DNA of 60,306 nt from a virus. The stretch is from IMG/VR virus record IMGVR_UViG_3300030406_001449, positions 1 to 60,306 of that record; one strand, written 5' to 3'. This document shows positions 6,701 to 28,871 of this stretch, piece after piece (position 1 is the stretch's first letter; each line of letters begins with the position of its first letter). The notes under the pieces were generated by a model. That model did no database searches. It worked only from the letters and a program-made list of their open reading frames with translations, and had not been told where the DNA came from. Both the position numbers and the translations under genes were made by a program.

Positions 6701-6913
6701 GCAATAAATGCGAGAGTCAAAGCATTACAAGGTATAAGAAAAGAAAGAAGAAGATTAATTGAAGCACCTAGGACAATAATATCAGCAGACGGTAAAAAAG
6801 AATTATTAGATGCTTTTTATAAAGAAGAACGAGAAATATTACGAGAGATAAGAGACCTCCGTAAAGTCGTGTTTGGAACAGGCTTTGAAGACCCACCTGA
6901 AACTATACGTTAG
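707..6913 (+). CDS. Giant polyvalent internal/ejection protein with HExxH metallopeptidase motif
   Basis: A 2068-residue protein with a strong AGGAG ribosome site. It is the largest gene here and the last of the rightward block, the place where podoviruses encode internal proteins ejected with the DNA. Seen in order: hydrophobic Ala/Gly-rich segments around residues 120-230; a Lys/Glu coiled coil near 325-350; a Val/Glu/Asp-rich low-complexity stretch near 450-560; HEGTH at 954-958, followed by Glu1008 in VDEFVTNAL, which fits a gluzincin-type zinc site; and a C-terminal part (about 1650-1950) with VINFKRAGSN and VPFFGAYLQ, which resembles the LPD38-type domain of large polyvalent phage proteins. 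Family knowledge: such proteins are packaged and delivered into the host. That the zincin cleaves a host or virion protein is inference. Its stop overlaps the convergent gene by 4 bases. Confidence 0.85.
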   Translation: MPKYNITGPDGQSYTVDAPEGATESQAQNYILNKYYAPPEDEETAGFFEGLQSGTKRFLSGIQTGVEAPFTSGEEAAISGIERGKNITGAPGTSLKNVTSRIDRGEYLGAVGEALSQVPGALGEQTPVLASIFGGTKLGTAIATGFARGLALPLPPHLRIAAGLIGGMAAPFFSMAGSNMERKAEEDIKAGRPVDVDELSAYSTALAQSAIERAGLAYSGISKVLGFSLVKGGTKAAEKLARENIASALAKGAGKLAVVEGATEATQQLLERYYAGLPLTDEDAQKEYMESAYAAALLFPLGSYQRASERSGAKQEIRQENIKKAKEKLKKTQEEEEQKEKDADKSISEEINDIERQANAELAGDVDLGDIFTVDDMNRAKFRSRDTARNNLLKLDLTKITELQQADEILTEALRTYDDARVNKKVIRKLRTKVRKRIKELETTGDAPPPPAEETDVVVVSEKKEDEEKEVVEEKDIVVENKKKDDEKIVTDVGEEIISADDDVINIVDDKVVEETAVETTDVIENEEEVLNFIANTDNVTKNKIVTQLNVTQSEATKILKKALDDGVIKADTKGRSTIYTGVQDDRRTGKRGRGAAQDVDQRGLGVGVDPSVQQAKASDDIAEEVTKNDRDAVATLGSDTGQLTGRKKRVDTPLIPAKQADVLRKKPGVKTTGKIQKNFVGKTVTLAQIDPDIQGGFTLRTGEYINKEGTPVLRTRDRNFKPKQKQQGIEESAPGLVSEFVINDNAIINPNSQQFTKLKKLAKTAREKNTKTNVFFEGQVTNSKGLIESFQNELKQIRAIEAGDTTGGFVDNALSPVRNTALRRLTQLKANARKALADPEFKKDINKESNKSLKNLLFSRRPGIEQDKEVIKGLKGVQNLGEALTTIEKKFGDSLSTVQKQLLPIIMGTPRTNQTSFKISPKMEQKEGGYGSYELKTDTIKISDNADLETIFHEGTHAATANEVSNHVNEDGVGITRIGKRLVELYNDAKRADVDNEFSIELENVDEFVTNALNNGQFQEYLSSIPASESNFKAPPPPPTGQDAIQEENSYIRDLERKGATEQEIIGLVRIRRAGNNTVWSKFVNTIKDMFRANDTPHNVLNDVLAISPSLFFGPNAEQQIGSDKILYNKNESYTDEELKEVNERLKQPSEVAADQEDKIKKEIGDSDSLVSIWDKIATSVFSFDAALNNKVRRELEKDQDTDWEVISKTLNEMSVSQVLHVENVVEEFLKFGKIKYNTDTDKFVVVDEGNASFQRVMDSLKELAAKANVQYQTMREAADKNFKARRAQELINNNNIIKAQMKALFKQGKKQQAKDLGKANLVKVLLTQDQIDEALTLSKTYPELNDIHNMWIESKNDAIQFLVDTEIMTPEQAKEFSMVVDTEGAPEQMIEKDENGNFLDTYVPFYGKNTKKKPSARQKTRLGDRGKFYRLKGTYEPVDDVFTNMELWMRSSLKRGMLNKKALDKIKAIESLPQQAQDTIMKTGEDVDRASANTVAMSRVRDGVRRVEYYQFSDPFFAQAFSGMERAQIDGLGFITNISNFLRSNVVLYPLFSLAQLPQDSVSAMFSSGVKNPFMIPLRVLKEFPKTLLNMSQTHKDMKKYGAVGFAGTYSQADVDAKGEIMDDGFYNRWSSSIRANPVGDAALTFLNRIAMASDNAVRQAVYEQTMKETGNERLAIERAFEVINFKRAGSNAAVTMLRQTVPFFGAYLQAASVQGRVLTGRGITPTQRAQGMQQLLLTGTQLAMLTLAYTLMADDDEDSEYEKLDPTIRDRRFLLGNGAYITLRPDLFTFLFKIMPEQVINTMNEEQDNKKTFDSMKRNLGEIFNANIVPQAVRPIANVLSNRDARTGRPIVPQSIADLEKRDQYTANTSELAKILSDMTGNVRPTAEYDYYLRQYLGYTGGLLMMFADKIIDDLDVYDYDRATKSDRDLLASIPGMSNFIAREYGNRHTTDYYEAKAEISKIYNSYKNLEKNEFDRKRVEDYAKDNYSVIQAKGAINARVKALQGIRKERRRLIEAPRTIISADGKKELLDAFYKEEREILREIRDLRKVVFGTGFEDPPETIR

Positions 6914-17978: not shown

Positions 17979-18278
17979 TTACTTAATATTGCTTTCGCCT
18001 GTTTTAATAAATAACTCTAGCATGTCTACGTTCTTTTCGTCAATAACTAATGATTGACCTAGTGAATTTTTTATATCGTTGAGATTTTTTTCTTGAAGTG
18101 CTGTGGGTTTGTTGCCATTGGCTTTACATTCAATACCAATAAATTTCCCACGATAAGAGGCGATGATGTCTGGCACACCACTTGAGCCATAACCACCTGT
18201 TGAGGGCATACAATAATAACAACTAAGTTCTTTGAGTATGTGCTTGACTTTCTGCTTGACTTTCTTTTCTGGTGTCAA
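17979..18278 (-). CDS. VRR-NUC domain nuclease
   Basis: A 99-residue protein, about the length of stand-alone phage VRR-NUC enzymes. It has the family pattern: GYGSSGVPDIIASYRGKFIG, then IECKANGNKPTALQ, giving the Asp of GVPD and Glu-x-Lys of IECK as the PD-(D/E)XK catalytic residues, and a conserved Gln in TALQEKN. Family knowledge: such proteins are structure-specific nucleases that can act on Holliday junctions or flaps. The N-terminus overlaps the upstream gene by 56 bases in another frame. It lies 11 bases before the 65-residue gene and near the replication block. Confidence 0.9.
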   Translation of the reverse strand: MTPEKKVKQKVKHILKELSCYYCMPSTGGYGSSGVPDIIASYRGKFIGIECKANGNKPTALQEKNLNDIKNSLGQSLVIDEKNVDMLELFIKTGESNIK

Positions 18279-18660
18279 TGCTAATTCCTTTTAGTTCGGA
18301 TAGTTCATCTTCGGACATGATTATAACATATATACTATCAGATACATACCAACCAATATTTTTAAACTCTGGATTATTTTTAGTGTATCTGTAATATGTA
18401 TAACAATCTAATTCATTGAATGCGTCATCATGTTCAAAAGAGTTCCAATCTTCTTTAGGAATAGAATTAATCATAGCTAACTTTGATTGAATAAACTTGG
18501 GTAGTGTTGTCGCCTGGAAAATTCTTTTAGTGTTGTCGCCAACATAAAAATTATATTGTGGTGTATCTCGTCGTGAGCTTACGACGAAATCCATTTGAAG
18601 AAGCACCATATAGTTTTCTTCAAATGGATAGGGACTGTAGATTATTTCATCTGTTCTCAT
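18223..18660 (-). CDS. Hypothetical protein, 145 aa, carrying a palindromic repeat
   Basis: No family recognised. It is Tyr- and acid-rich with a short Gln/Ser-rich tail (ESQAESQAHTQRT). The 20-bp palindrome at 18568-18587 lies inside the gene and encodes FVVSSRRD, so the repeat adds a short polar linker. The start ATG is inside a 15-base inverted repeat (GTTCTC-ATA-GAGAAC, 18653-18667), which could hide or expose the start. The 3' end overlaps the VRR-NUC gene by 56 bases. Confidence 0.7.
   Translation of the reverse strand: MRTDEIIYSPYPFEENYMVLLQMDFVVSSRRDTPQYNFYVGDNTKRIFQATTLPKFIQSKLAMINSIPKEDWNSFEHDDAFNELDCYTYYRYTKNNPEFKNIGWYVSDSIYVIIMSEDELSELKGISIDTRKESQAESQAHTQRT
18568..18587. repeat. 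Dispersed palindrome, copy R1
   Basis: TCGTCGTGAGCTTACGACGA, the exact reverse complement of copies R2 and R5. Inside the coding sequence of the 145-residue gene. Confidence 0.85.
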
Positions 18661-18706
18661 AGAGAACTATCATAACTTTTTCTCTATGAATTTTGCAAGT
18701 GTTAAA

Positions 18707-19441
18707 TTAATACTCGCCCTCACTTACAATCCACTTTCTTAGTTTAGTAATACCTACTTCTTCTTTAGTGGGTCTTTTTTTTGGGTTAGGATTTTTAAGA
18801 CCATTCTCATAAATGTGCACTACCATTTTCATAGTTTCTGGTGGTAAATCTCTTTTTGCTGTATTTGCACCCCATGTACAGAATACAATGTTACTTCTTT
18901 TTCTACCTTTTGTTTTAGTATAACCTTTTTTGGGTACTAATTGGTCGCAAGATACATTTCCAAGAGGTCGTTGATTTCCCATATCATAGTTCCAACGTAT
19001 CCAAGTAAATTCATCACCTGTATAAGGACAGTAGTAACCAAACTCTTTTTTCTGTTTTACCCACAAATTCCAAAAAGTTTTAAAGGTTGGGTGTTCGTGA
19101 GGTAAGTCGTGCTTTTTTGCATTGTTTACTGTGCCTCTCCATAGTTCATAAATGTATAGAGTTTCATCGCCTTGTTCTTTAAGTGCTATTCTTTTTTGTT
19201 TAAGAAGTTCATCATTCGCTTTTGCTGTAGCTGACTGCCTATTCTTTTTTCTAGTCGCTTGTCCTTTGGGACTATTTCTATATGTTTGTCTAGTTTTTTT
19301 TCCCTTAGGACTTTGATTATATTTCTTCGTACTTGCTTTTCCTTTAGGACTTGTGTCATACTTCTTTTGACTAGCTTTACGATTAGCTTTTTTCTGTTTT
19401 TTAGTTAATAAATCTTTTTTCTTTGTATATTGATTTGCCAT
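18707..19441 (-). CDS. HNH-type endonuclease with basic SPKGK repeats
   Basis: The first 75 residues are Lys-rich with four or five SPKGKA/TSPKGKA-like units, probably a DNA-binding arm. The C-terminal part has YYCPYTG, then VSCDQLVPKKGYTKTKGRKR and NIVFCTWGANTAKRDL, matching the layout of phage HNH nucleases (the S-x-D ... GY ... N pattern), with Cys in CPYTG. This makes a homing or strand-nicking endonuclease the best guess. The gene is preceded by a 52-bp repeat (19469-19520) and by GGAGAAAAACT before the ATG, the leader shared with other early genes. Confidence 0.75.
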   Translation of the reverse strand: MANQYTKKKDLLTKKQKKANRKASQKKYDTSPKGKASTKKYNQSPKGKKTRQTYRNSPKGQATRKKNRQSATAKANDELLKQKRIALKEQGDETLYIYELWRGTVNNAKKHDLPHEHPTFKTFWNLWVKQKKEFGYYCPYTGDEFTWIRWNYDMGNQRPLGNVSCDQLVPKKGYTKTKGRKRSNIVFCTWGANTAKRDLPPETMKMVVHIYENGLKNPNPKKRPTKEEVGITKLRKWIVSEGEY

Positions 19442-19468
19442 AGTTTTTCTCCGAATTTTTCTTCGTTA

Positions 19469-19520
19469 TTTGCGATTTAAGGTACTTAAAAAAACTTTTG
19501 CTTATCTAAGTACCCCCCAA
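19469..19520 (-). repeat. 52-bp direct repeat, copy D1
   Basis: Matches 21001-21052 at 49 of 52 positions by eye. On the minus strand it can fold as GGTACTT ... AAGTACC with a loop of about 18. It sits just upstream of the HNH-like gene, after the stop of the 416-residue gene. It may be a regulatory leader or a recombination site. Confidence 0.85.
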
Positions 19521-19521
19521 A

Positions 19522-20772
19522 TTATTGTGGTTTAGGCATTAGTAACCAATCTACTAAGAAAGGATTACCTTTTAGTGAATGATGCCTAGAGTTTAGTTGA
19601 TAATAACAACCCAAATCCTCAAACCAATTAGAGCTGTCATTATAACTATGTGTCTTAAAGTATTCTTCAGCAACAGTTGCTCCAGCTCCTTTATTTTCTT
19701 CTGACCATTGTTCCAGCTTAAGTTTTAGCATAGCAAGTGTAGGTTTTATACTATCATAGAAACTTAGTTGTTCTAGGTTACGTACCACCTGTGTATTTTG
19801 CATTATTAAATTACCCAACTTTATATCTAACTGCTCTGCCTTCTCAAATGTGTGTAGGTCGTGAGTTCCTATTTTACCATTAGGTAATTTATAACAAAAC
19901 TGCCTTTGATATCTTCCAGTTGTTACTTCTGGAAAATGCTCAAAAACTTCACCGACTAAAAAGCCACCCATGTTCATTCTACCAATACTAATAAAGCCAT
20001 TTTCAAACTCTTCCTTTAGGTCGCCAATCACTTTCTTAAGATGATTTTTGTCATTATCAAGAGTTTTGATAACGTTCTCATAGTATTCATTGGTTTTATG
20101 AGAAATAGGTTTTTTAGTACCATACAAACTATCTATCAATTCTCCTAGCATTTCTCTGTTGTCGTAAGTTAACTCACTTAACTTTCTATCATAATCTGAT
20201 ATAAGACTTGATATAGTTTTGTTTCCATCAAAATAGCTTGAAACAACATCTTGAGTTTGTATAAGAATAGGTTTCCAAGTTGGTGTAGGAGCTGATGTAT
20301 CAGCAAGAGGCGACCATTCTTTTTTTCTTAATGATTTTAATACTTGTGATACTTTTATAGACTTAATAGTTTTTCTATCCCAACTATCACGACCTCTATC
20401 TTTGATATAATAGTTTGCTTGGAAACAATAATTATCTTCATTATCATAGTATACAACAGCTTGAGGAATACCATCATAAGTCATCACGAATGCCTCATCA
20501 TACCACATAGTTCTACCTTCACTTGCTTGTTTCTTAATCTCCTCATCTAACATAGGGTTATAATTAATATCATTAAATTTATCAAAATCCTCTGCCTCTA
20601 AATAATTTATATGCCATTGAGTGTCATACTTATGCCTCGCTAGAAATAGTCTTTGACTTACACGCATGTCATACCTATGACATAAGTCTTTTACCATAGG
20701 AAAAACTTTACTCTCATTCAAACTTTGTTCCAGCTCTGCTGTGTGCATATTGTCGCTTATATATTTATTCAT
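19522..20772 (-). CDS. Hypothetical protein, 416 aa
   Basis: I do not recognise a family. The N-terminal 160 residues are mixed alpha/beta with many Tyr and Asp (YDGIPQAVVYYDNEDNY); the middle, 190-270, is helical and polar; the C-terminal part has charged coils and LGCYYQLNSRHHSL. No transmembrane segment, signal peptide or clear catalytic motif. It overlaps the 71-residue gene upstream by 4 bases, and the pair is bracketed by the 52-bp repeats D1 and D2, so they may move or be controlled as a unit. Confidence 0.8.
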   Translation of the reverse strand: MNKYISDNMHTAELEQSLNESKVFPMVKDLCHRYDMRVSQRLFLARHKYDTQWHINYLEAEDFDKFNDINYNPMLDEEIKKQASEGRTMWYDEAFVMTYDGIPQAVVYYDNEDNYCFQANYYIKDRGRDSWDRKTIKSIKVSQVLKSLRKKEWSPLADTSAPTPTWKPILIQTQDVVSSYFDGNKTISSLISDYDRKLSELTYDNREMLGELIDSLYGTKKPISHKTNEYYENVIKTLDNDKNHLKKVIGDLKEEFENGFISIGRMNMGGFLVGEVFEHFPEVTTGRYQRQFCYKLPNGKIGTHDLHTFEKAEQLDIKLGNLIMQNTQVVRNLEQLSFYDSIKPTLAMLKLKLEQWSEENKGAGATVAEEYFKTHSYNDSSNWFEDLGCYYQLNSRHHSLKGNPFLVDWLLMPKPQ

Positions 20773-20984
20773 AGTTTTTTACTCCAGTTTTTGTTTTTAG
20801 GATTAATCTCTGTTGGTTTACTTTCATAAATACCAACTGCTAACACTTCAACACTACTTGGCTCTCCCCAAGTGTAATGATTTTGCACTAAACTCTCTGC
20901 CTCTTCACTACTATTAGCCATTACAGAAATCGGCTTATAATGTTGTGTAATGTATACTTCGTACTTTTTCTTCTCTTCATTCAT
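20769..20984 (-). CDS. Small protein resembling DpnD/PcfM-type domains, 71 aa
   Basis: Begins MNEEKKKYEVYITQHYKPIS, then VMANSSEEAESLVQNHY, a strand-strand-helix pattern as in DpnD/PcfM C-terminal-like domains. The resemblance is by eye. The stop overlaps the 416-residue gene. It follows repeat D2, and AGGTAAAAATT precedes the start, a variant of the shared early-gene leader. Function unknown. Confidence 0.7.
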   Translation of the reverse strand: MNEEKKKYEVYITQHYKPISVMANSSEEAESLVQNHYTWGEPSSVEVLAVGIYESKPTEINPKNKNWSKKL

Positions 20985-21000
20985 AATTTTTACCTCGTAG

Positions 21001-21052
21001 TTTGCGATTTAAGGTACTTAAAAAAACTTTCGCTTATCATAGTACCCCCCAA
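21001..21052 (-). repeat. 52-bp direct repeat, copy D2
   Basis: Same element as D1 with three differences. Lies directly upstream of the 71-residue gene and directly downstream of palindrome copy R2. With D1 it flanks a segment of about 1.5 kb. Confidence 0.85.
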
Positions 21053-21054
21053 TT

Positions 21055-21074
21055 TCGTCGTAAGCTCACGACGA
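21055..21074. repeat. Dispersed palindrome, copy R2
   Basis: TCGTCGTAAGCTCACGACGA, identical to R5. Starts 3 bases past the stop codon of the DUF3150-like gene. Confidence 0.85.
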
Positions 21075-21077
21075 CTA

Positions 21078-22016
21078 TCAATTAAACTTAGATAGTATGT
21101 CATCAATACCTTGCTTAACTTCTGCTCTAGTGCTATCACTATCTCTTAGTAAGTCAGTAGATACTCCGCCAATCACTTTTTCCAAGTCATCAACTGCCTC
21201 TTGCAACATATCACTTTGCTCATTGTCTATTGGTTTAAAGTTCTTAATAGTATTTACCAATGCTTTAGCTCGTTGAAATGTAGTATCATAGATAGCTCGT
21301 TTCTTAAAAGTAGGTTGTCCCTCTTTGTCAACACCCTCTATCATTCCACAGCAGTGTGAAATACTCCTCATCACATCAACGATACGATTACATTGGTCAT
21401 TGATTACTGTTCTCACAATATCATCTGCTTGTTGCTGGTACTCTGCTTTCAAGTCATTTGCTGTATCTTGCGACACTTGACATCTGAAATCTTGGCTCGG
21501 TACTTCTGCTACAAACAATCGCATGTTAAACTTGTGTCGTAGTTCTTCAACACTTGGATAGTCGCTTTTGTCAAACATATCACCTTGTTTAAATGCCTCA
21601 TCACTTACAAGAGTTTGATAGTTCTCAAGGAAGTCCTCTACTGCTGTATTAAACTCACTTTCATACTTATCATACTCTGTCTTAAATTTCTCAAGGTCAA
21701 CTGTTGGTAACAAGTGCTGTGAATTGTTCCACCTGTATGTAGAATGTCTAAGCCATTTAAGTATCAACTGTCGTAACTTCACAATCCTATGGTGTTTAGG
21801 ATTTTTAGCAAAGAGATACTTAGTAAACTTACCTGTACCCAACTCTGCTTTTTTCATAGTGGTTACTTCATCTGAAATACCTCTGTCTTGCTTGGTTGCA
21901 GTCCAGACATTCACATCAACTGACACCAACATACTTGATGTTGCCAACGACACAATGTGTTCTGGTTGTTGTAGCTTATAGCTATCGGTGGTTACACCAC
22001 TTTTTTCTAATAACAT
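21078..22016 (-). CDS. DUF3150-like protein of the MoxR/VWA module
   Basis: A 312-residue helical protein. The N-terminal VSVDVNVWTATKQDRGISDEV, then HLLPTVDL and YQTLVSDEAFKQGDMFDKSD followed by YPSVEELRHKFNMRL resemble phage proteins assigned to DUF3150, usually found next to CobS/MoxR-like ATPases and CobT/VWA-like proteins. Here the same partners follow the neighbouring order (22279-24708). I infer it is a component or substrate of that AAA+ machine. The gene has the shared leader GGAGTAAAAACT before ATG. Its 3' end abuts palindrome R2. The family call is from pattern memory and should be tested. Confidence 0.7.
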   Translation of the reverse strand: MLLEKSGVTTDSYKLQQPEHIVSLATSSMLVSVDVNVWTATKQDRGISDEVTTMKKAELGTGKFTKYLFAKNPKHHRIVKLRQLILKWLRHSTYRWNNSQHLLPTVDLEKFKTEYDKYESEFNTAVEDFLENYQTLVSDEAFKQGDMFDKSDYPSVEELRHKFNMRLFVAEVPSQDFRCQVSQDTANDLKAEYQQQADDIVRTVINDQCNRIVDVMRSISHCCGMIEGVDKEGQPTFKKRAIYDTTFQRAKALVNTIKNFKPIDNEQSDMLQEAVDDLEKVIGGVSTDLLRDSDSTRAEVKQGIDDILSKFN

Positions 22017-22021
22017 AGTTT

Positions 22022-22252
22022 TTACTCCTGTTGTAGTTTATAATCAATTACTTCAAATTCTTCGTTTAATGCTTTGAGTTCCTCTTCATCTTTTACATAG
22101 AAAAACACATCATCATCATTGATTGGGTCGTGGTATAAATCATTCTCTCTACAATATTTATCCTTACCAAACTTAATGTAATACCCCTCTAGTACTTCTT
22201 GAGTATCTTTCCATTTAATAGTGCAAACTGCACCTACACTTTCTTCTGCCAT
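22022..22252 (-). CDS. Small acidic protein, 76 aa
   Basis: Acidic, with a beta-rich start (GAVCTIKWKDTQEVLEGYY) and an acidic helix (DEEELKALNEEFEVIDY). No family recognised. It sits 5 bases upstream of the DUF3150-like gene and 26 bases after the VWA gene, in the same operon, with GGGAGAAAAACT before ATG. Likely an accessory of the module by context only. Confidence 0.7.
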   Translation of the reverse strand: MAEESVGAVCTIKWKDTQEVLEGYYIKFGKDKYCRENDLYHDPINDDDVFFYVKDEEELKALNEEFEVIDYKLQQE

Positions 22253-22278
22253 AGTTTTTCTCCCATAGTTTAAATTAT

Positions 22279-23457
22279 TTAATCATACTGAACGACAACA
22301 CTTCCAGTCGTTCCCTTAAAGTCTTTCCTGTCTGTTACAACATACAATGTAGGTGTAGACATACTCCATTGAATATCATGCTCAACCCAACCATCAGTAA
22401 ACACAATGATTGCCTCAGCTTTTATTCGTTCCTTTGTGATGTATTCACTCACACAGGATAGTCTAGTGCCACCACCACCTGCCACCTTGAGTAACTTATG
22501 TAGCTCTTGATATTGGTCTGGTCTGAACATCTGTTCACTACATACCTCATAGTCCCACCACAATATGCGTATCAAGTCTGGTGTAACTGTGTTCACGATA
22601 CTCTGCAACTCGGTAGCAAAGATTGTCAGTTCTTCTTGACCAATACTTCCAGATGTATCACATGCAATCACTAGCTCACCTACACTCTCGTTTTCCATAG
22701 AGGGTAGATATAAGTCATTAGGTAACATTCGCTTGTTAAACTTTCGCCAAGTGAACTCATCATTACCCTTACAGGTTGATGATACAAACTCTCTCATCAT
22801 TTCTCGCCAATCAAGTTTTGGCTCAAAGAGTTCGTCAATGGCTCTAGGTATCTTGCCACCAACTTTCCCAGCAAGTATGCTACCCTCTTTGAGTGCGTTC
22901 TCAATCTTCTGTGCCATCTCTTTTTGCTCTTGAGGTGTCATCTCTTGACCACTACCCTCAAAGTCATGCTCATCAAGAGGTTGTAAATTTGATTGACCTT
23001 CGTCGTCGCTTGACGACGATTGTTCTTCCATATCTTTAAGTATCTCGTTGACTGACCAATTATGATACTTCTCTTCATATAAACAACCCTTTGGTAATTG
23101 ACATAAGTCCTTATCTTCCAAGTGATTGATAACATCATTGACTACATAATCAGCACACACATTCATATGGTGTGGATTTTTGTAATACTCTTTCTTAAAT
23201 CTACCGACATGATTAAGTGCCACATGTAAATTCTCATGCAATATCAATGCTCGTAACTCCAAGTCTGATAGTCCCTCAATAAACTTTCTACCATAGTATT
23301 TATTAAAGCCATCAGTCTTAGCAGTTGGACAATCATCAACCACCTCTGACTTACCCAACATCATCACTCCACTATATAGAGCAGTTTCTGGGTGTTTCAT
23401 CAAAGCAATATGAGCTTTCTTAATTCTATCCTCTGGGGATAGCTTGTGTGTTGTCAT
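22279..23457 (-). CDS. Metallopeptidase-like/VWA-like protein (DUF2201 type)
   Basis: A 392-residue two-part protein. The N-terminal part has LILHENLHVALNH, an HExxH site at 74-78, with CADYVVNDVIN (99-109) as expected for the DUF2201 N-terminal putative metallopeptidase domain. A polar linker (SSSSDDE, 147-153) is encoded by palindrome R3. The C-terminal VWA-like domain has the MIDAS motif DTSGS at 267-271 and IIVFTDG later. Family knowledge: such proteins pair with MoxR ATPases, which remodel or load metal onto targets. The ATPase gene lies just upstream (23650-24708). Whether the peptidase is active is unknown. Confidence 0.88.
   Translation of the reverse strand: MTTHKLSPEDRIKKAHIALMKHPETALYSGVMMLGKSEVVDDCPTAKTDGFNKYYGRKFIEGLSDLELRALILHENLHVALNHVGRFKKEYYKNPHHMNVCADYVVNDVINHLEDKDLCQLPKGCLYEEKYHNWSVNEILKDMEEQSSSSDDEGQSNLQPLDEHDFEGSGQEMTPQEQKEMAQKIENALKEGSILAGKVGGKIPRAIDELFEPKLDWREMMREFVSSTCKGNDEFTWRKFNKRMLPNDLYLPSMENESVGELVIACDTSGSIGQEELTIFATELQSIVNTVTPDLIRILWWDYEVCSEQMFRPDQYQELHKLLKVAGGGGTRLSCVSEYITKERIKAEAIIVFTDGWVEHDIQWSMSTPTLYVVTDRKDFKGTTGSVVVQYD
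23000..23019. repeat. Dispersed palindrome, copy R3
   Basis: TCGTCGTCGCTTGACGACGA, inside the VWA gene, encoding the SSSSDDE linker between the two domains. Confidence 0.75.
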
Positions 23458-23627
23458 AGTTTTAACTCCTGTTGTTCATTTACTTCGTATGTTCCGTCAA
23501 ACCTATATCTTCCTTGAACAATATCTTCTATGTTATCCATTAGCCACTTGTGAATATGCGACATAGGTACAGAGAAGTCCTCGCCCTCTTTGAAGTCTGT
23601 AATTATACATCTAGTTTTAAAGTCCAT
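23454..23627 (-). CDS. Small protein between ATPase and VWA genes, 57 aa
   Basis: Minus-strand frame starting MDFKTRCIITDFKEGED and ending VNEQQELKL. The stop TGA overlaps the VWA start as ATGA, and GGGAGAAATACT precedes the ATG, so it is very likely translated. No family recognised; no membrane segment. By position it belongs to the MoxR/VWA module. Confidence 0.7.
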   Translation of the reverse strand: MDFKTRCIITDFKEGEDFSVPMSHIHKWLMDNIEDIVQGRYRFDGTYEVNEQQELKL

Positions 23628-23649
23628 AGTATTTCTCCCATAGTTTAAA

Positions 23650-24708
23650 TTACATAATGTTAAAGTTCTCTACTGCCCAATCTGCTATCTCTTTATTACC
23701 CCTAGCAATCTTGACTGACTTAGTATTTCTCATCATCATAGTAAAGAAAATAGCTTGTATCTCACTACTATTAATCCTATTGATGTACTTCATAAATGCT
23801 GTTAAGTCGCTTTGCTGTTTAATTTTATCAACAGCTTGGAACATCAACATCAGTTGAGCTGAAATACTATCTGGCATATTGGTTGTTTCTGGTTTCTCGA
23901 GTATCTCGGTAAAGGTCGGTAACTCTTTCTCAAGTCGCAAGAATGCTGACATATCCGCACTTGCACTTGCACCAATCGTCCCACTCAATGCCACCATAGT
24001 TGCGTTTTCGCCTAGCTTATCCCTGTTATCCACAATCACACTAGCTTTTTCTAGTGAACGAGGACTGACAAAGGATAGCATTGGTTTCTTAGGATTAAAG
24101 ATGTATGGATTATCTTCCTGTCCGCTATCCCTGTAACTCGCAAGAACTCTAGGAAAGGTATGTACGAATGCTCGTATCAAAGGATTTACTCCATTTTCAG
24201 TCGCCCATACTAGCCAATCCTCTACATTTGGTTTTTCCATTTCTAATATACACACTCTGTTACCAGCATGTGCTAACATAGTGTCGCCCAAGCCATCAGC
24301 TTGATTGTTAGATGTACCAAATACAATACTTCCCTCTGGTAGAGGTGTATCACCTACAGTTCTCTCAAGCATAAGTCTAGTAAAGATAACTTGTAGTAGC
24401 TTTGGTGATTTCATAAACTCATCTAGCAAGATAACTTTAGGTTTATCGTTATCAAGTTTAAACAATGAGCCAACATAGTTCTCTAGTGTTTTAGTTTCAT
24501 GGTTGGGGATAGTCATAGCAATATCTGACATATCCTTGACTGGACAATCTACATAGATGTAATCGTATTTGTCCCCTAGTTTTTTCTCAATCGCTTTGAG
24601 TAGACTAGTCTTACCACACCCAGCTTCACTCTGTATGATTGGTGTTAGAGTTTCTCCTATCGTAGGGATAAGAGTTTCTAACTCTTTTATGGTTACTCTT
24701 TGTTGCAT
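23650..24708 (-). CDS. MoxR/CobS-like AAA+ ATPase
   Basis: A 352-residue AAA+ protein. Walker A is SEAGCGKT at 27-34, Walker B VILLDEF at 92-98, sensor 1 in VFGTSNNQ near 129-136, and RLMLERTVGD (111-120) fits the region before sensor 1 in MoxR-family proteins. MoxR ATPases act with VWA proteins as chaperone-like or chelatase-like machines. Here the VWA/peptidase and DUF3150-like genes follow directly. It has GGAGTAAAAACT before the start. In phages such sets have no agreed function. The C-terminal lid domain is helical. Confidence 0.9.
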   Translation of the reverse strand: MQQRVTIKELETLIPTIGETLTPIIQSEAGCGKTSLLKAIEKKLGDKYDYIYVDCPVKDMSDIAMTIPNHETKTLENYVGSLFKLDNDKPKVILLDEFMKSPKLLQVIFTRLMLERTVGDTPLPEGSIVFGTSNNQADGLGDTMLAHAGNRVCILEMEKPNVEDWLVWATENGVNPLIRAFVHTFPRVLASYRDSGQEDNPYIFNPKKPMLSFVSPRSLEKASVIVDNRDKLGENATMVALSGTIGASASADMSAFLRLEKELPTFTEILEKPETTNMPDSISAQLMLMFQAVDKIKQQSDLTAFMKYINRINSSEIQAIFFTMMMRNTKSVKIARGNKEIADWAVENFNIM

Positions 24709-24713
24709 AGTTT

Positions 24714-24860
24714 TTACTCCTGTGGTTTCCCACTATTTGAGGCATATCTGCCTGTTCTATTTTCTAAGTCTTTCATATCTTGGTGTTGCAGTATCATTAG
24801 TAACCCAATAGCTGTTACTATCAATCCTAACGCAAACCCTATTACAAACATCATTATCAT
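24714..24860 (-). CDS. Small single-span membrane protein, 48 aa
   Basis: A short minus-strand frame starting MIMMFVIGFALGLIVTAIGL with one transmembrane helix (about residues 3-24) and a polar tail ending SGKPQE. GGAG lies 8 bases before the ATG (GGAGTAAAACT), the same leader as other early genes, and the stop is 5 bases upstream of the MoxR start. This strongly suggests translation. It may anchor the MoxR complex at the membrane (inference). Confidence 0.7.
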   Translation of the reverse strand: MIMMFVIGFALGLIVTAIGLLMILQHQDMKDLENRTGRYASNSGKPQE

Positions 24861-24882
24861 AGTTTTACTCCTGTGGTTGTTG

Positions 24883-24902
24883 TCGTCGTGAGTTCACGAC
24901 GA
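24883..24902. repeat. Dispersed palindrome, copy R4
   Basis: TCGTCGTGAGTTCACGACGA: perfect 9-base arms and a 2-base centre. Between the stop of the 150-residue gene (24905) and the start of the membrane-protein gene. Confidence 0.85.
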
Positions 24903-24904
24903 GG

Positions 24905-25357
24905 TTATTCAATTAATTTATTTTTTTCGTCAAATGCGACATCTATAACATCAATTCTAGGTTTTGTTAGATAAGCCAACTCATAACCCAACTCGCCATA
25001 GTATTCTGAGTTTATATCATCATCATCTTCGCCTACTCGCAGAAAACAAGCCGACATTCCAAACTTAGTGTCATTACAATAATGTGTTGACATACCAAAA
25101 AGATAATTAAAACTAGCTACCCATTTATCGGAGTCATACCACTTGACATCATTAAAACTAACATACAAAGAGCAGTTTTTCATATCAATACCCCCATAAT
25201 CCAGTTGAGTATCTTTTTTTGTAAGTTCTCTCATAGCAATATCACATTTAGGATTAGCTTTGAGTTCAGCGATAAACAAGTGCCAATTCTTAACACTTTC
25301 CTCATCTTCATGGTCGTCCATTTGTATGACCATAACAACTTCACTACGATAACCCAT
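24905..25357 (-). CDS. Conserved MGYRSEV-type phage protein, 150 aa
   Basis: Begins MGYRSEVVMVIQMDDHEDEE, a start pattern seen in many phage proteins of unknown function. Mixed alpha/beta, acidic, Tyr- and Asp-rich; no catalytic signature. Its stop is followed after 2 bases by palindrome R4. Function unknown. Confidence 0.75.
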   Translation of the reverse strand: MGYRSEVVMVIQMDDHEDEESVKNWHLFIAELKANPKCDIAMRELTKKDTQLDYGGIDMKNCSLYVSFNDVKWYDSDKWVASFNYLFGMSTHYCNDTKFGMSACFLRVGEDDDDINSEYYGELGYELAYLTKPRIDVIDVAFDEKNKLIE

Positions 25358-25358
25358 A

Positions 25359-25466
25359 CTAACCCCCTATGCTACGCATGTATACTGTTACAGCACAAGA
25401 TACCACTACTAACAATGGTATGAGTGCTACAATCGTTAATTTAAAATATAGTATCAGCTTATTCAT
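25359..25466 (-). CDS. Very small membrane or lipoprotein-like peptide, 35 aa
   Basis: Minus-strand frame MNKLILYFKLTIVALIPLLV, then VVSCAV; one hydrophobic span, with VVSC fitting a loose lipobox. It overlaps the upstream gene's 3' end by 8 bases and ends one base before the 150-residue gene start. GAGAGGGGG lies upstream. It may be a membrane peptide, a small lipoprotein or chance, but spacing argues for a gene. Confidence 0.5.
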   Translation of the reverse strand: MNKLILYFKLTIVALIPLLVVVSCAVTVYMRSIGG

Positions 25467-25644
25467 TTGACACCCCCTCTCGTTCTTCAGCTTTCTTGTC
25501 TACAAGTTCAAGCATAGCACCATCAATGTCAGTCGTAATATCTACCCCATACTTCTCGCACATGGTACAAAACTCATTGACTGAAAGTTCGCCTAGCTGT
25601 GTGAATATATCTTCTCGTACTTCGTCATTACTCATATTACTCAT
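25459..25644 (-). CDS. Small acidic protein, 61 aa
   Basis: MSNMSNDEVREDIFTQLGEL, then CTMCEKYGVDI and an acidic end. Helical with one CxxC. It overlaps the upstream gene by 8 bases and the 35-residue gene by 8. Function unknown. Confidence 0.65.
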   Translation of the reverse strand: MSNMSNDEVREDIFTQLGELSVNEFCTMCEKYGVDITTDIDGAMLELVDKKAEEREGVSNE

Positions 25645-25858
25645 TTTTTATTACCTCTCTATATAGTTTATTTACATACTTCTTACGATACATACAGTTA
25701 TTATCAATACAAAACTGTATGAACTTCTTGTTCAATCGTGCCACTTTCATAGTCTTTTTATCTCTAAGTATGGCTCTCATAAACACTTCCTTTGCTATTG
25801 TGTCTTGCTGTTGCATACACATCACAGCATAATTTATATCATCATGTGTTCTTATCAT
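25637..25858 (-). CDS. Small basic protein, 73 aa
   Basis: MIRTHDDINYAVMCMQQQDT, helical, basic in the second half (KKTMKVARLNKKFIQ). Overlaps both neighbours, as usual in this operon. No family recognised. Confidence 0.65.
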   Translation of the reverse strand: MIRTHDDINYAVMCMQQQDTIAKEVFMRAILRDKKTMKVARLNKKFIQFCIDNNCMYRKKYVNKLYREVIKNE

Positions 25859-26018
25859 CTTTATCCCCCTGCATGTAATCGTGCAATACTTTGATTTGTT
25901 GCTCCCGTGTAAGACTTCTATCTATGTACTTCTTGAGTGCTATCTCGTACTCTTCTTTAGTTACATTAGGTCTATTCATTTCCCACCATAAATATGCAAA
26001 GTCTGTAAAGTTTGTCAT
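25842..26018 (-). CDS. Small acidic helical protein, 58 aa
   Basis: Minus-strand frame from ATG at 26018: MTNFTDFAYLWWEMNRPNVT, then KEEYEIALKKYIDRSLT. Mostly helical. It fills the gap exactly, overlapping the downstream gene by 17 bases and the zinc-ribbon gene by 4 (ATGA type), which supports it. Function unknown. Confidence 0.65.
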   Translation of the reverse strand: MTNFTDFAYLWWEMNRPNVTKEEYEIALKKYIDRSLTREQQIKVLHDYMQGDKDDKNT

Positions 26019-26230
26019 CTGTGAAATCCCCCTTTGTTGTTAATGCCTTTCAAGTCTGCTTTGTCGCTGACCACGACATAGTTTGATTTGTGCATTGGTA
26101 CGATTGTGTGCTTTACTTTTCTGGCTTGATGTTCGCCACAGTCAAGGCAAGTGTTGAAACCTGCCTCTAATCGTTTCTTGCTGTAATATGCACCACAGCT
26201 CGAACAGATTGCCTTCATTGATTTAGTCAT
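26015..26230 (-). CDS. Two-pair Cys zinc-ribbon protein, 71 aa
   Basis: MTKSMKAICSSCGAYYSKKR, then NTCLDCGEHQARKVKH: C-x2-C and C-x2-C spaced about 16, a zinc ribbon near the N-terminus. The rest is basic with Gly/Asn-rich end. GGGAGTAAAAACT precedes the ATG. Likely a nucleic-acid or protein-binding adaptor; unproven. Confidence 0.75.
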   Translation of the reverse strand: MTKSMKAICSSCGAYYSKKRLEAGFNTCLDCGEHQARKVKHTIVPMHKSNYVVVSDKADLKGINNKGGFHR

Positions 26231-26381
26231 AGTTTTTACTCCCTTGCTTTTCTTTTAGAATGGCTCTAGCTTTATCTATTGTTTCTTGACTAGCACCACC
26301 TAAAAAATAATTCATTGTAGAATTAGTATTGTCAAAAGTTTTGAGCCATTTTCTTAGTTCTTGTATAGTCCAGTTTTCCAT
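26223..26381 (-). CDS. Small helical protein, 52 aa
   Basis: Minus-strand frame from ATG at 26381: MENWTIQELRKWLKTFDNTN and a second helix SQETIDKARAILKEK. CAGGAGAAAAAACT precedes the ATG, the shared leader. It overlaps the zinc-ribbon gene by 8 bases. The palindrome R5 lies 15 bases upstream. Function unknown. Confidence 0.7.
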   Translation of the reverse strand: MENWTIQELRKWLKTFDNTNSTMNYFLGGASQETIDKARAILKEKQGSKNYD

Positions 26382-26395
26382 AGTTTTTTCTCCTG

Positions 26396-26415
26396 TCGTC
26401 GTAAGCTCACGACGA
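26396..26415. repeat. Dispersed palindrome, copy R5
   Basis: TCGTCGTAAGCTCACGACGA, identical to R2. The stop codon of the 120-residue gene (26407) lies inside this palindrome, giving the protein a Ser-Ser-Ser end. Confidence 0.85.
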
Positions 26416-26769
26416 ACTGTTAGTTAAGAATGCGACTTCTCGTTTTGCTTTGCGTTCCATATACCTCATCAAAGAGCCACATCTTATATACTCTTTCATA
26501 TCATCAGTATATAACCAACACTCAACTGGCTCACTAGGTCTGCATTGTGATTGATGTTTTGATGTTGACATTGAGTATCTACCTTTATTCCCTATCCACA
26601 TTCCAGCTTGTCTATCATAGATATACATTGGGAAGTGGTAGCCATAGCTGTATACGACATATAACCCGTCGTCATCAAATGACACTTTATTTTCTGCAAA
26701 GGTATTGCTACCCTCAAAGACTTTTAGTTCGTCAACATATTGACTTGCGTTTTTGTTTGCTACTTTCAT
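26407..26769 (-). CDS. Hypothetical protein, 120 aa, first gene of main early operon
   Basis: I start it at 26769 because GGAGCAAAACT lies just before that ATG, as in neighbouring genes; the frame is open to 26862 but that region reads as leader with palindrome R6. The product MKVANKNASQYVDELKVFEG has a beta-rich middle (SFDDDGLYVVYSYGYHFPMY) and a basic end. Promoter at 26870-26898 lies about 100 bases upstream. Function unknown. Confidence 0.75.
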   Translation of the reverse strand: MKVANKNASQYVDELKVFEGSNTFAENKVSFDDDGLYVVYSYGYHFPMYIYDRQAGMWIGNKGRYSMSTSKHQSQCRPSEPVECWLYTDDMKEYIRCGSLMRYMERKAKREVAFLTNSSS

Positions 26770-26797
26770 AGTTTTGCTCCATAGTTTTATTAGTTGC

Positions 26798-26817
26798 TCG
26801 TCGTGAGATGACGACGA
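26798..26817. repeat. Dispersed palindrome, copy R6
   Basis: TCGTCGTGAGATGACGACGA. In the 5' leader of the main early operon, between its promoter and first gene. Confidence 0.8.
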
Positions 26818-26869
26818 GAGTACATTAGTGCTAGATACAAAATTTAGATATGTTTCTACCACTATGACT

Positions 26870-26898
26870 ATTATACTATATGTAAAGTAATAGGTAAA
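26870..26898 (-). promoter_or_regulatory. Putative main early promoter (minus strand)
   Basis: Minus strand: TTTACC (26898-26893), 17-base spacer containing CTTTACATATA, then TATAAT (26875-26870). Predicted start about 26863, a leader of about 95 bases with palindrome R6, then the first gene at 26769. It would serve the leftward block. Confidence 0.6.
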
Positions 26899-27014
26899 GT
26901 TTGTAATCCATTTATTTACAACTAAATGAATTGAGATAAAACTACCATTACTAACACTACCACCACATCAACTAGAAACATATGACCAAAAATTACACGC
27001 AGTCTACGTTATTT

Positions 27015-27036
27015 TCACTATCTAAATCTCACTATC
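27015..27036. repeat. 22-bp direct repeat, copy 1
   Basis: TCACTATCTAAATCT-C-ACTATC; one mismatch to the copy at 27153-27174. The shorter word CACTATCT also occurs near 27688 and 27913. Confidence 0.75.
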
Positions 27037-27152
27037 GCACGAAAGATAAAGGATATCTGACGACCTGCACTTTAAGTTTTTTATTAGGATATAAACTTCA
27101 TTATCATTTGAAACTTAACTCTCTGCCTAGCGGGACAGCTTTGACTTTTATA

Positions 27153-27174
27153 TCACTATCTAAATCTTACTATC
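27153..27174. repeat. 22-bp direct repeat, copy 2
   Basis: TCACTATCTAAATCT-T-ACTATC. Spacing to copy 1 is 138 bases. Similar AACTTNA words follow both copies. Confidence 0.75.
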
Positions 27175-27416
27175 ATCTAAAAGTTAACTTCCAGCTCCCT
27201 GTACAGGCACAGAGTATTTTATGGTAGTGTATGACGCACAGCGATAAATACATTGTGATTAGAGTCCCGAGATGCTAAATCATCTTACTGTACATATTAT
27301 GGTATAAACTTTACATATAGAAAAACATAAGTAGCTGAGCTTCGGACAAATAGTGTACTTTTTGAGTTCAAAAAACTGGTTATTCCAAAATGGTAACTTG
27401 TTGTTTTTATTGTAGT

Positions 27417-27436
27417 TCGTCGTCAGTCGGCGACGG
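27417..27436. repeat. Dispersed palindrome, degenerate copy R7
   Basis: TCGTCGTCAGTCGGCGACGG; arms imperfect compared with other copies. In the non-coding region. Confidence 0.6.
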
Positions 27437-27505
27437 TTCTCGGTTCTAACTGGGTGTAGCTTTACATATAATACTGGAACTGGACTTATTGTTTTATGTA
27501 AAGTA

Positions 27506-27542
27506 AACCTAAGTGATTGTAATTATAAGAGATACTTAGGTT
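27506..27542. repeat. 9-bp inverted repeat beside an A/T tract
   Basis: AACCTAAGT (27506-27514) and ACTTAGGTT (27534-27542), perfect arms, 19-base loop. Followed at once by a long A/T-only stretch. Possible origin hairpin or operator. Confidence 0.6.
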
Positions 27543-27871
27543 ATTATTATATTATATATTATGTTTTTTACTTATTATTTCTTCAGTTCTTAAGTTCCTA
27601 GTTTTTTGATAGGACGATACCTTTCTGCAACGAATAATTACACCGCAAAAACAAGACGAAAGACCACAGAAAAACGAAAAGTTGCTCACTATCTAAAAAA
27701 AGAGGGAACTATGGAACTGGTTTTACATATCAAATACTTAAGTAGGAACTAAAATAGGAACTGAAGAGAACTTAAAATAAAAAAAATAGGAACTGAACTG
27801 ACTATCAAAGTAAATAGCCGATTTGAAAACTGGTTACACAAAAAAAACTGGCTATTAAATTTAAAAACAAC

Positions 27872-27899
27872 TTGACATAAACTTAAGTTTACATATAGT
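27872..27899 (+). promoter_or_regulatory. Sigma70-like promoter on the plus strand, antisense to early genes
   Basis: TTGACA, 16-base spacer, TATAGT. The -10 overlaps a TTTACATATA motif. It points toward genes that are on the minus strand, so the product would be an antisense or small RNA, a replication primer, or a long 5' leader for the structural block at 29841. Confidence 0.5.
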
Positions 27900-27957
27900 T
27901 TACTCTCTATGTACTCACTATCTTAGTACATTCGGAACTGGCGACAAAATTTGAGCC

Positions 27958-27991
27958 AAAAAAAGGGCGGTTAGATTTCTCTAACCACCCT
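27958..27991 (-). terminator. Rho-independent terminator for the 214-aa gene
   Basis: On the minus strand AGGGTGGTTAG (27991-27981), loop, CTAACCGCCCT (27974-27964), one G-T pair, followed by seven T (27964-27958). Begins about 25 bases after the stop at 28016. Confidence 0.8.
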
Positions 27992-28015
27992 AAAAACGTC
28001 CTTGTCAAGTCCTAA

Positions 28016-28660
28016 CTATTTCATATATTTTTTATTAATCTCAATTGCTTTATTATACATATCTAGCATTTCGATTGCATAGCCCTTATCACAAGCACCT
28101 TTTTTCATAGCATTCGACATTCTCTTATGTTCTCGCATAATATTAATTTCTGTTTGCTGTTCAAAGGTTTTACCCTCGTCGTCAGTTGACGACGGTGCTT
28201 TAGGTTCTACGGCAAGTTTTACCCAAGTCTTAAAACGTCCGCCTATAAACTTGAATAACTCACGACGAACACCCGAAAAACCCACCTCGTCGGACATTAT
28301 AGCCGAGTATATTTCCTCACCATGCGGTTGAGTTTTCCATTTTTTCTCATCCCATAATACCTTAGTAACCGTCAAATCGATTTCAGTATCACCGATTTTC
28401 TGTTTACCGAATTTAGGCATATGTTCGTCTTTATTAGCCCACTCAACGGCTAACAATTTAGTTACATCATTATAAAATGATATGCTTTCCTTGTTACCGC
28501 CTTTAGCTATGGGTTTAGAGTGTTGGTGCAAAGTCTTCTCGTACCATTTTGGCATTAAAGTATTTAGCACACGAACAGCACTTGTAACACTCATATTGAT
28601 TTCATGCTGTTTATTTTCCGCCGATAATATATCGGATATAGCTTTTTTTACTGTAGTCAT
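28016..28660 (-). CDS. Hypothetical early protein, 214 aa, monocistronic
   Basis: MTTVKKAISDILSAENKQHE, helical N-terminal region, a middle with VGFSGVRRELFKFIGGRFKTW, a polar linker SSTDDEG encoded by palindrome R8, and a helical end (INKKYMK). No family recognised. It has its own promoter (28776-28804) and terminator (27958-27991), so it is expressed apart from the other early genes, perhaps as a first-expressed host take-over or control protein (inference). Confidence 0.75.
   Translation of the reverse strand: MTTVKKAISDILSAENKQHEINMSVTSAVRVLNTLMPKWYEKTLHQHSKPIAKGGNKESISFYNDVTKLLAVEWANKDEHMPKFGKQKIGDTEIDLTVTKVLWDEKKWKTQPHGEEIYSAIMSDEVGFSGVRRELFKFIGGRFKTWVKLAVEPKAPSSTDDEGKTFEQQTEINIMREHKRMSNAMKKGACDKGYAIEMLDMYNKAIEINKKYMK
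28176..28195. repeat. Dispersed palindrome, copy R8
   Basis: TCGTCGTCAGTTGACGACGG, inside the 214-residue gene, encoding a Ser-Ser-Thr-Asp-Asp-Glu linker as R3 does in the VWA gene. Confidence 0.75.
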
Positions 28661-28677
28661 AGTCTTTCCTATAGTTG

Positions 28678-28697
28678 TCGTCGTGACCTCACGACGA
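28678..28697. repeat. Dispersed palindrome, copy R9
   Basis: TCGTCGTGACCTCACGACGA: near-perfect 9-base arms. In the 5' leader of the 214-residue gene, 18 bases from its start codon. Confidence 0.85.
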
Positions 28698-28707
28698 GGA
28701 CGACGAG

Positions 28708-28776
28708 GTTAGTATAAGCACATCTATATAAGCATGTGCGGTTTATGGTTATATAATGTTGCTAACCATGCTTATA
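28708..28776. repeat. Nested inverted repeats in leader of the 214-aa gene
   Basis: TATAAGCATG (28727-28736) pairs with CATGCTTATA (28767-28776), 10 perfect bases; GGTTAG (28708-28713) pairs with CTAACC (28762-28767); TATAAGCA occurs again at 28713-28720. The set lies just downstream of the promoter -10, where a repressor or RNA structure would act. Confidence 0.6.
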
Positions 28777-28804
28777 ATATAACAAATATAGATATATATG
28801 TAAA
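28776..28804 (-). promoter_or_regulatory. Putative promoter of the 214-aa gene
   Basis: Minus strand: TTTACA (28804-28799), 17-base spacer, TATATT (28781-28776). The -35 is part of an ACTTTACATATA motif. Confidence 0.55.
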
Positions 28805-28851
28805 GTTTTAAATACATTTAGTTGTAAGTTATTGATTTTATTAAGAAATTC

Positions 28852-28871
28852 ACGTCGTAGATTGACGACGA
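28852..28871. repeat. Dispersed palindrome, copy R10
   Basis: ACGTCGTAGATTGACGACGA; arms slightly degenerate. Intergenic, upstream of the promoter for the 214-residue gene. Confidence 0.65.

Follow-up and report, generated by a model that had tools for sequence, protein, structure and literature searches.

Dispersed 20-bp palindromes of aquatic phages change together with the first gene of a putative early operon and are candidate DNA sites for its protein

What are ten copies of one 20-bp palindrome, TCGTCGT-N6-ACGACGA, doing in the early region of a phage, at gene junctions, in leaders and inside genes? The question is raised by a stretch of 60,306 nucleotides (positions 1 to 60,306 of IMG/VR virus record IMGVR_UViG_3300030406_001449), here called the window. 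We propose that the palindromes are probably double-stranded DNA sites for a protein of the phage itself, the product of the gene that opens the leftward, presumably early operon; binding there would most likely block transcription. This gene, which we call the slot gene, is flanked by a divergent gene preceding the terminase (29841 in the window) and by a conserved gene whose product begins MKVANKN.

Palindromes of the early region and their counterparts in relatives

A sequence-only reading of the window had listed the ten palindromes, and direct inspection found each of them at its coordinates (Table 1). The arms match exactly in seven copies, with one mismatch at 28176 and 28852 and two at 27417. 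A search allowing up to three mismatches returned 11 matches, including an overlapping register of the copy at 26798. In 100 dinucleotide shuffles the mean was 0.43 matches and the maximum 2, so the count is far above chance. The copy at 18568 is, as had been noticed, the exact reverse complement of those at 21055 and 26396. All ten are confined to 18568-28871, and the replication and structural genes hold none. The earlier impression that the structural half is free of copies was borne out; a relaxed core (GTCGT-N6-ACGAC, one mismatch) adds only a site at 26666. The sites start upstream of the slot gene and cover about 10 kb, with a spacing that mostly widens away from it, from 174 to 2487 bp.

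Three copies are clearly within genes (18568, 23000 and 28176). The copy at 26798 cannot be counted with them, as it falls within an open reading frame (ORF) only with a distant GTG start. Relatives start at a conserved MKVANKN or MRVANKN, and this copy is therefore a leader site. The copy at 26396 extends over the end of one gene, and the next start comes 15 nt after it.

Relatives were gathered by scanning IMG/VR with window proteins; their contigs are designated by L numbers. Those with 85-93% nucleotide identity to the window across much of its early and replication regions lack the TCGTCGT motif, and so do not share these copies as plain coding sequence. Each instead has its own 20-bp palindrome family, with the 7-N6-7 geometry unchanged. 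The half-site is TTGTAGT in L117, L118, L120 and L121, TTCCCGT in L119, TGTATCG in L124/L138 and, among more distant relatives, TTGTCGA in L125/L186, L131, L134/L160 and L158. Maps of the relatives revealed that palindrome placement relative to genes is also unchanged, down to the same codons within two genes. In the 145-amino-acid gene, four classes carry TCGTCGTAAGCTCACGACGA, TTGTAGTGAACTCACTACAA, TTCCCGTAAGCAAACGGGAA and ATGTATCGCATACGATACAC at one place, with conserved coding sequence on either side, and the encoded residues vary accordingly (VVSSRR, VVNSLQ, PVSKRE and VSHTIH). The 20 bp are exchanged in register, and length is unchanged between most classes. Thus, the in-gene copies, which had looked as if inserted, are better described as replacements. 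Same-place replacement in four classes was also found in the HNH/VWA gene; L138 has no copy inside this gene and one palindrome just ahead of it.

Palindrome families of this kind are widespread among the relatives. Of 45 non-redundant related genomes in which a slot gene was identified, 44 had a largest family that exceeded those of all 100 third-order Markov sequences; for the remaining genome the result was 1/100. Half-sites in the distant clade include GATTCAC, GTCCCAC, ATTCCAC, GTTTCAG, TTATCGG, AAATCGG, AGCGTGG and ACCCTAG. A locus holds about 4-10 palindromes (up to about 20 under relaxed matching), in the early region.

The slot gene follows the motif

Slot genes are lineage-specific, encode proteins of about 190-265 amino acids and have one or two palindromes just upstream. 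The 214-amino-acid protein of the window matches only those of L041, L084 and L055 (76-86%), AT-rich contigs with several TCGTCGT palindromes, and scans of 2.9 million viral contigs with the motif and with the protein returned these same three contigs. In other motif classes the slot gene is replaced. The 225-amino-acid slot protein of L120 also occurs in L117, L118 and L121, all TTGTAGT genomes, and the 237-amino-acid protein of L186 in the TTGTCGA genomes L131, L134, L151, L158 and L160; L155, which has a more distant relative of the L186 protein, has the related motif ATGTCGT. Slot proteins thus share homology inside each motif class, but BLAST finds no relationship between those of close classes, even though most other conserved genes can be aligned across classes. 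Among L120 ORFs of at least 100 amino acids, the slot protein alone occurs at 85% within its class while every other class lacks it.

A later protein scan for the TTGTAGT class added two contigs, L409 with five TTGTAGT palindromes and L411 with one, just upstream of the gene; neither holds the motif of another class. Because L409 and L120 have identical slot proteins, L411 provides the more independent evidence. The corresponding motif scan (TTGTAGT-N6-ACTACAA) was too unspecific in AT-rich phages for a clean co-occurrence test.

The relationship between motif and slot protein was quantified with partial Mantel tests (rank correlation, 43 genomes), using the protein of the 312-amino-acid gene as background distance. 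Motif distance followed slot distance given background (0.53, with 0 of 2000 permutations as high) and did not follow background given slot (-0.001, 969 of 2000). A near-identical background gives the same picture: the window and L120 have ATPases that are 94% identical, unrelated slot proteins and different motifs. Some genomes (L224, L226, L228, L260 and others) have tandem slot-gene duplicates beside a single palindrome family. The idea that two slot genes would bring two families was rejected.

We also examined which residues change with the motif. In A1, a distant branch of the slot proteins (about 95 ORFs), alignment columns were ranked by how strongly they associate with motif distance once overall slot distance is removed. 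Residues 125 and 129 (L226 numbering) ranked first and second of 190 columns (family-wise permutation P of 0.001 and 0.01). They lie one helical turn apart in a predicted helix spanning 110-142 (model pLDDT, the predicted local distance difference test score, 93) and follow half-site bases 4 and 6. At residue 129, Asn goes with A at position 6 and Asp or Glu with G; Thr goes with CAA, and Lys or Gln with CGT. At residue 125, Thr goes with C at position 4 and Lys mostly with T. In several genomes where one slot copy has Thr125, Asp125 in the second copy correlates with C at position 3. Contacts between Asn and adenine and between Asp and cytosine are well established in the recognition of DNA by proteins.

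Residues 125 and 129 also appear usually to predict the motif of further genomes. When genomes without a called motif were scanned with the known cores, CCCAC led in L230, L233, L234, L235 and L250. The same scan of further genomes gave TTCGG in L253, TTCAG in L269, L271, L273 and L280, and TTCAC in L191 and L266; these leading cores agree with residues 125 and 129, in a test that used a core list without an exhaustive null and genomes many of which are closely related to the training genomes. L225 was ambiguous (three exact TTGAC; two exact CCCAC, 11 with up to one mismatch).

Are the palindromes read as DNA or as RNA? Across 338 sites, arm mismatches on the gene strand comprised 81 G-U and 115 A-C (55 and 76 at positions 8-9). 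As RNA pairing should favor G-U, the lack of a wobble excess indicates that double-stranded DNA is recognized. Pairs 3-7 are Watson-Crick in 86-99% of sites, and positions 1-2 and 8-10 are weak. A symmetric dimer that binds duplex DNA through half-sites one turn apart would be expected to leave this footprint. Together, the co-variation of motif and slot gene, the residue-base associations and the absent G-U bias strongly support one of the possibilities raised by the sequence-only reading, that the palindromes are sites for a phage DNA-binding protein. Slot proteins are also basic, with a median isoelectric point of 9.2 (9.15 for the window protein). Judged from sequence, the slot protein very likely recognizes the palindromes directly.

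How the sites may be used

Sites either sit within genes or lie at junctions, adjoining the stop codon of the preceding gene and the ribosome site of the following one. At 64 of 120 sites, a Shine-Dalgarno sequence and start codon follow within 60 nt (24.7 expected, maximum 42). This junction placement and the spread of the sites fit a roadblock or stoperator-type repressor with autoregulation, and fast change of specificity fits competition between related phages. The slot protein would likely repress the early operon in a stoperator-like manner and exclude related phages.

Beyond what the sequences support, namely co-variation, a residue-base code and double-stranded recognition, we infer how such a protein could work. 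A symmetric dimer would read two half-sites about one helical turn apart, with one long helix touching bases 4 and 6 of each half in the better-sampled branch. Made early, the protein would bind upstream of its own gene, at junctions and inside genes over the first 10 kb or so of the leftward operon. Binding would most likely block transcription in the manner of stoperators, combining autoregulation with roadblocks. This would turn early genes off in time and, as superinfection exclusion, silence the early genes of an incoming phage with the same sites. Competition among related phages would favor new specificities, with protein and sites swapped or drifting together.

Several observations weigh against this proposal. 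The slot protein has no recognizable DNA-binding domain, no Pfam or PHROG family match and no fold match: Foldseek with the family model (pLDDT 93) against PDB and viral models returned nothing below E 0.3. Two slot-protein representatives had no match in 50,697 phage records, and no relative was found in bacterial genomes. The residue-base code was derived in the A1 branch, not from the window protein. Homology between A1 and A2 proteins is probable (hhalign E 2.7e-5, probability 75; the match is colinear, and L148 matches both). The kinship of the window protein to them is weaker, with a low profile probability set against a similar order of structural elements and landmarks shared in an alignment. 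Its own AlphaFold model, from 8 rows, is poor (pLDDT 57) and not usable alone. Label permutation in the Mantel test only partly corrects for phylogeny and shared descent; the comparison between the window and L120 is less exposed to this problem because the background is nearly the same. No clear motif accompanies the slot gene in L262, L263, L277, L264, L241, L274, L199, L202 or L272. No -10 enrichment was detected at any offset beside the sites, and an operator role at promoters stays hypothetical. Lysogenic immunity is without support, since no integrase, partition or known repressor gene was found among 40 window proteins scanned against PHROGs, a scan that did not take in all small ORFs.

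Could the slot protein instead bind its sites as an activator or middle-gene switch at junctions? The clustering of sites shortly ahead of Shine-Dalgarno sequences and start codons, at the same genes in each genome, would suit such a role. However, sites that abut the preceding stop and the next ribosome site leave little room for a downstream -10, no common -10 was found upstream of them, and sites in the middle of genes are hard to account for. We consider an activator unlikely. Sites for replication, partition or DNA packing, read by a ParB-like or origin-binding slot protein rather than serving gene control, are also an improbable explanation. Their spread over about 10 kb, the spacing that mostly grows from the slot gene, and the location of some in coding sequence and one in an AT-rich non-coding stretch (27417) are consistent with it, but no ParA/ParB-type gene is among the searched proteins, and placement is strongly linked to translation starts.

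RNA processing hairpins had been raised by the sequence-only reading; in a wider version, a phage protein recognizes hairpins at junctions to control processing or translation. The sites are palindromic, GC-rich in the window and located between stop codons and ribosome sites, but their mismatches lack the G-U excess, Asn with A and Asp or Glu with G fit base reading in a DNA groove, and Rfam has no match in the window. Hairpins are thus very unlikely. We give as little credence to the idea that the motif tracks some other linked gene, with the slot gene only traveling along. Recombination does move early-region genes in blocks, and the same-class contigs are mostly short. However, no other L120 ORF of at least 100 amino acids, the size range covered, has the in-class-only pattern, and linkage leaves the residue-base association within the slot protein unexplained. 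Mobile palindromic elements (REP- or RPE-like) inserted in genes and leaders, another early suggestion, would explain near-identical copies within a genome, some in genes, but are contradicted by the unrelated palindromes that relatives hold at the same base positions, in register in the 145-amino-acid gene, and can be set aside.

Genomic context and known systems

Table 1. Palindromes and associated genes of the window
Feature	Coordinates	Strand	Remarks
Palindrome 1	18568..18587		Inside 145-aa gene, encodes VVSSRR; same register, other sequences in L120/L117, L119, L138
Palindrome 2	21055..21074		Intercistronic, after 312-aa gene; syntenic in L120 (12145), L119 (10664), L138 (6569)
Palindrome 3	23000..23019		Inside HNH/VWA gene, encodes SSSSDDE; other sequence, same place in L117, L120, L119, L186
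Palindrome 4	24883..24902		Intercistronic, directly after stop of 150-aa gene; syntenic in L120 (8873), L119 (7076), L138 (3121)
Palindrome 5	26396..26415		Gene junction, just before next gene's Shine-Dalgarno; syntenic in L120 (7809), L119 (5128), L138 (1565)
Palindrome 6	26798..26817		Leader of conserved MKVANKN gene; syntenic in L120 (7396), L119 (4712), L138 (889)
Palindrome 7	27417..27436		2 mismatches; AT-rich stretch without conserved ORFs
Palindrome 8	28176..28195		1 mismatch; inside slot gene, encodes Pro-Ser-Ser-x-Asp-Asp linker; kept in L041, L084
Palindrome 9	28678..28697		Ends 18 nt before slot gene ATG; candidate autoregulatory site
Palindrome 10	28852..28871		1 mismatch; upstream of slot gene; conserved in L041 (2347), L084
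Slot gene	28016..28660	-	214-aa basic protein, first gene of leftward early operon; putative sequence-specific palindrome reader
145-aa gene	18223..18660	-	Holds palindrome 1; compared across classes
312-aa gene	21078..22016	-	Background marker in Mantel test
HNH/VWA-type gene	22279..23457	-	Holds palindrome 3; phrog_1314
MoxR-like ATPase gene	23650..24708	-	phrog_1297; served to find relatives

The window terminase shares 50-53% identity with its counterparts in Pelagibacter phages HTVC027P and HTVC023P and in phage 023Pt_psg01. The first 24 kb of each of these three contain only AT-rich chance palindromes and no slot-protein match, and no close relative of the window was found in the annotated phage collection. 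The HNH/VWA and MoxR-like ATPase pair (22279-24708) has distant relatives in N4-like phages; the terminase here is HTVC027P-like. A 2068-amino-acid ORF (707-6913) is weakly similar to phrog_18222, a PHROG of unknown function. A 68-nt repeat (19456-19523 and 20988-21055, 88% identical) lies ahead of two genes, contains the inverted repeat GGTACTT...AAGTACC and has no Rfam match; a stretch resembling it comes after a palindrome in L117, L118, L120 and L138. Three diverged 69-nt direct repeats at 27006-27187, AT-rich and without a conserved ORF, could be a replication origin. In L119, near its first palindrome, the DnaA-box-like TGTGGATAA is repeated at about 2680-2710.

A search of a library of papers found no description of this palindrome and slot-protein system. 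The phage repressors with dispersed sites described so far come mainly from temperate phages, with standard DNA-binding domains. The genomes described here are dozens of uncultured aquatic phages, from ocean and lake, related to pelagiphages by terminase. In them, a protein of no recognized fold changes along with all its sites on an otherwise almost unchanged genome, a natural record of a regulator changing specificity and taking its sites along. Tentatively, these proteins may form an unrecognized phage DNA-binding family with an undescribed fold and a readable residue-to-base code, whose specificity shifts by gene replacement and point change, all sites following, and which could provide immunity-like recognition between competing, apparently lytic aquatic phages. 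The predicted code can be checked with a few synthetic DNAs, and the system is a possible exclusion mechanism between lytic ocean phages.

Among known systems, the c repressor of the temperate Streptomyces phage phiC31 reads palindromic sites (conserved inverted repeats) across the early region. In temperate phage P1, the autoregulated repressor C1 acts at many genome-wide operators, which are asymmetric. Cluster K mycobacteriophages also have repeats just ahead of start codons: SAS are asymmetric, with a presumed role in translation, and ESAS are 17-bp repeats that hold inverted repeats with a variable spacer (PMC3203893). Their cognate factor was left open, and class switching was not described (PMC3203893).

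Cluster A mycobacteriophages (L5, Bxb1, TipsytheTRex) have an immunity repressor and stoperators, with a site consensus particular to each phage (PMC6550527, PMC9283540). Their stoperators are asymmetric, oriented 13-bp sites that number up to about 30 per genome; the repressor binds them as a monomer and has a helix-turn-helix and a second domain, and motif distance also follows genome distance (PMC6550527, PMC9283540). In contrast, the sites described here are 20-bp palindromes, about 4-10 per locus in the early region, with a motif independent of background; the slot protein has no helix-turn-helix or fold match, and no lysogeny genes were seen in the window. Comparison of stoperator features revealed neither an asymmetric 13-bp site in one orientation nor a helix-turn-helix plus second DNA-binding domain. 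Shared features are many copies of one site, at junctions and in genes, and a consensus that co-varies with a phage protein. As in cluster A, a phage-coded protein is accompanied by many dispersed sites, most of them off promoters, and sites and protein diverge together (PMC6550527, PMC9283540). Thus, the palindromes and slot protein should not be classed as a stoperator system, although cluster A is the closest in working and the system probably works like one.

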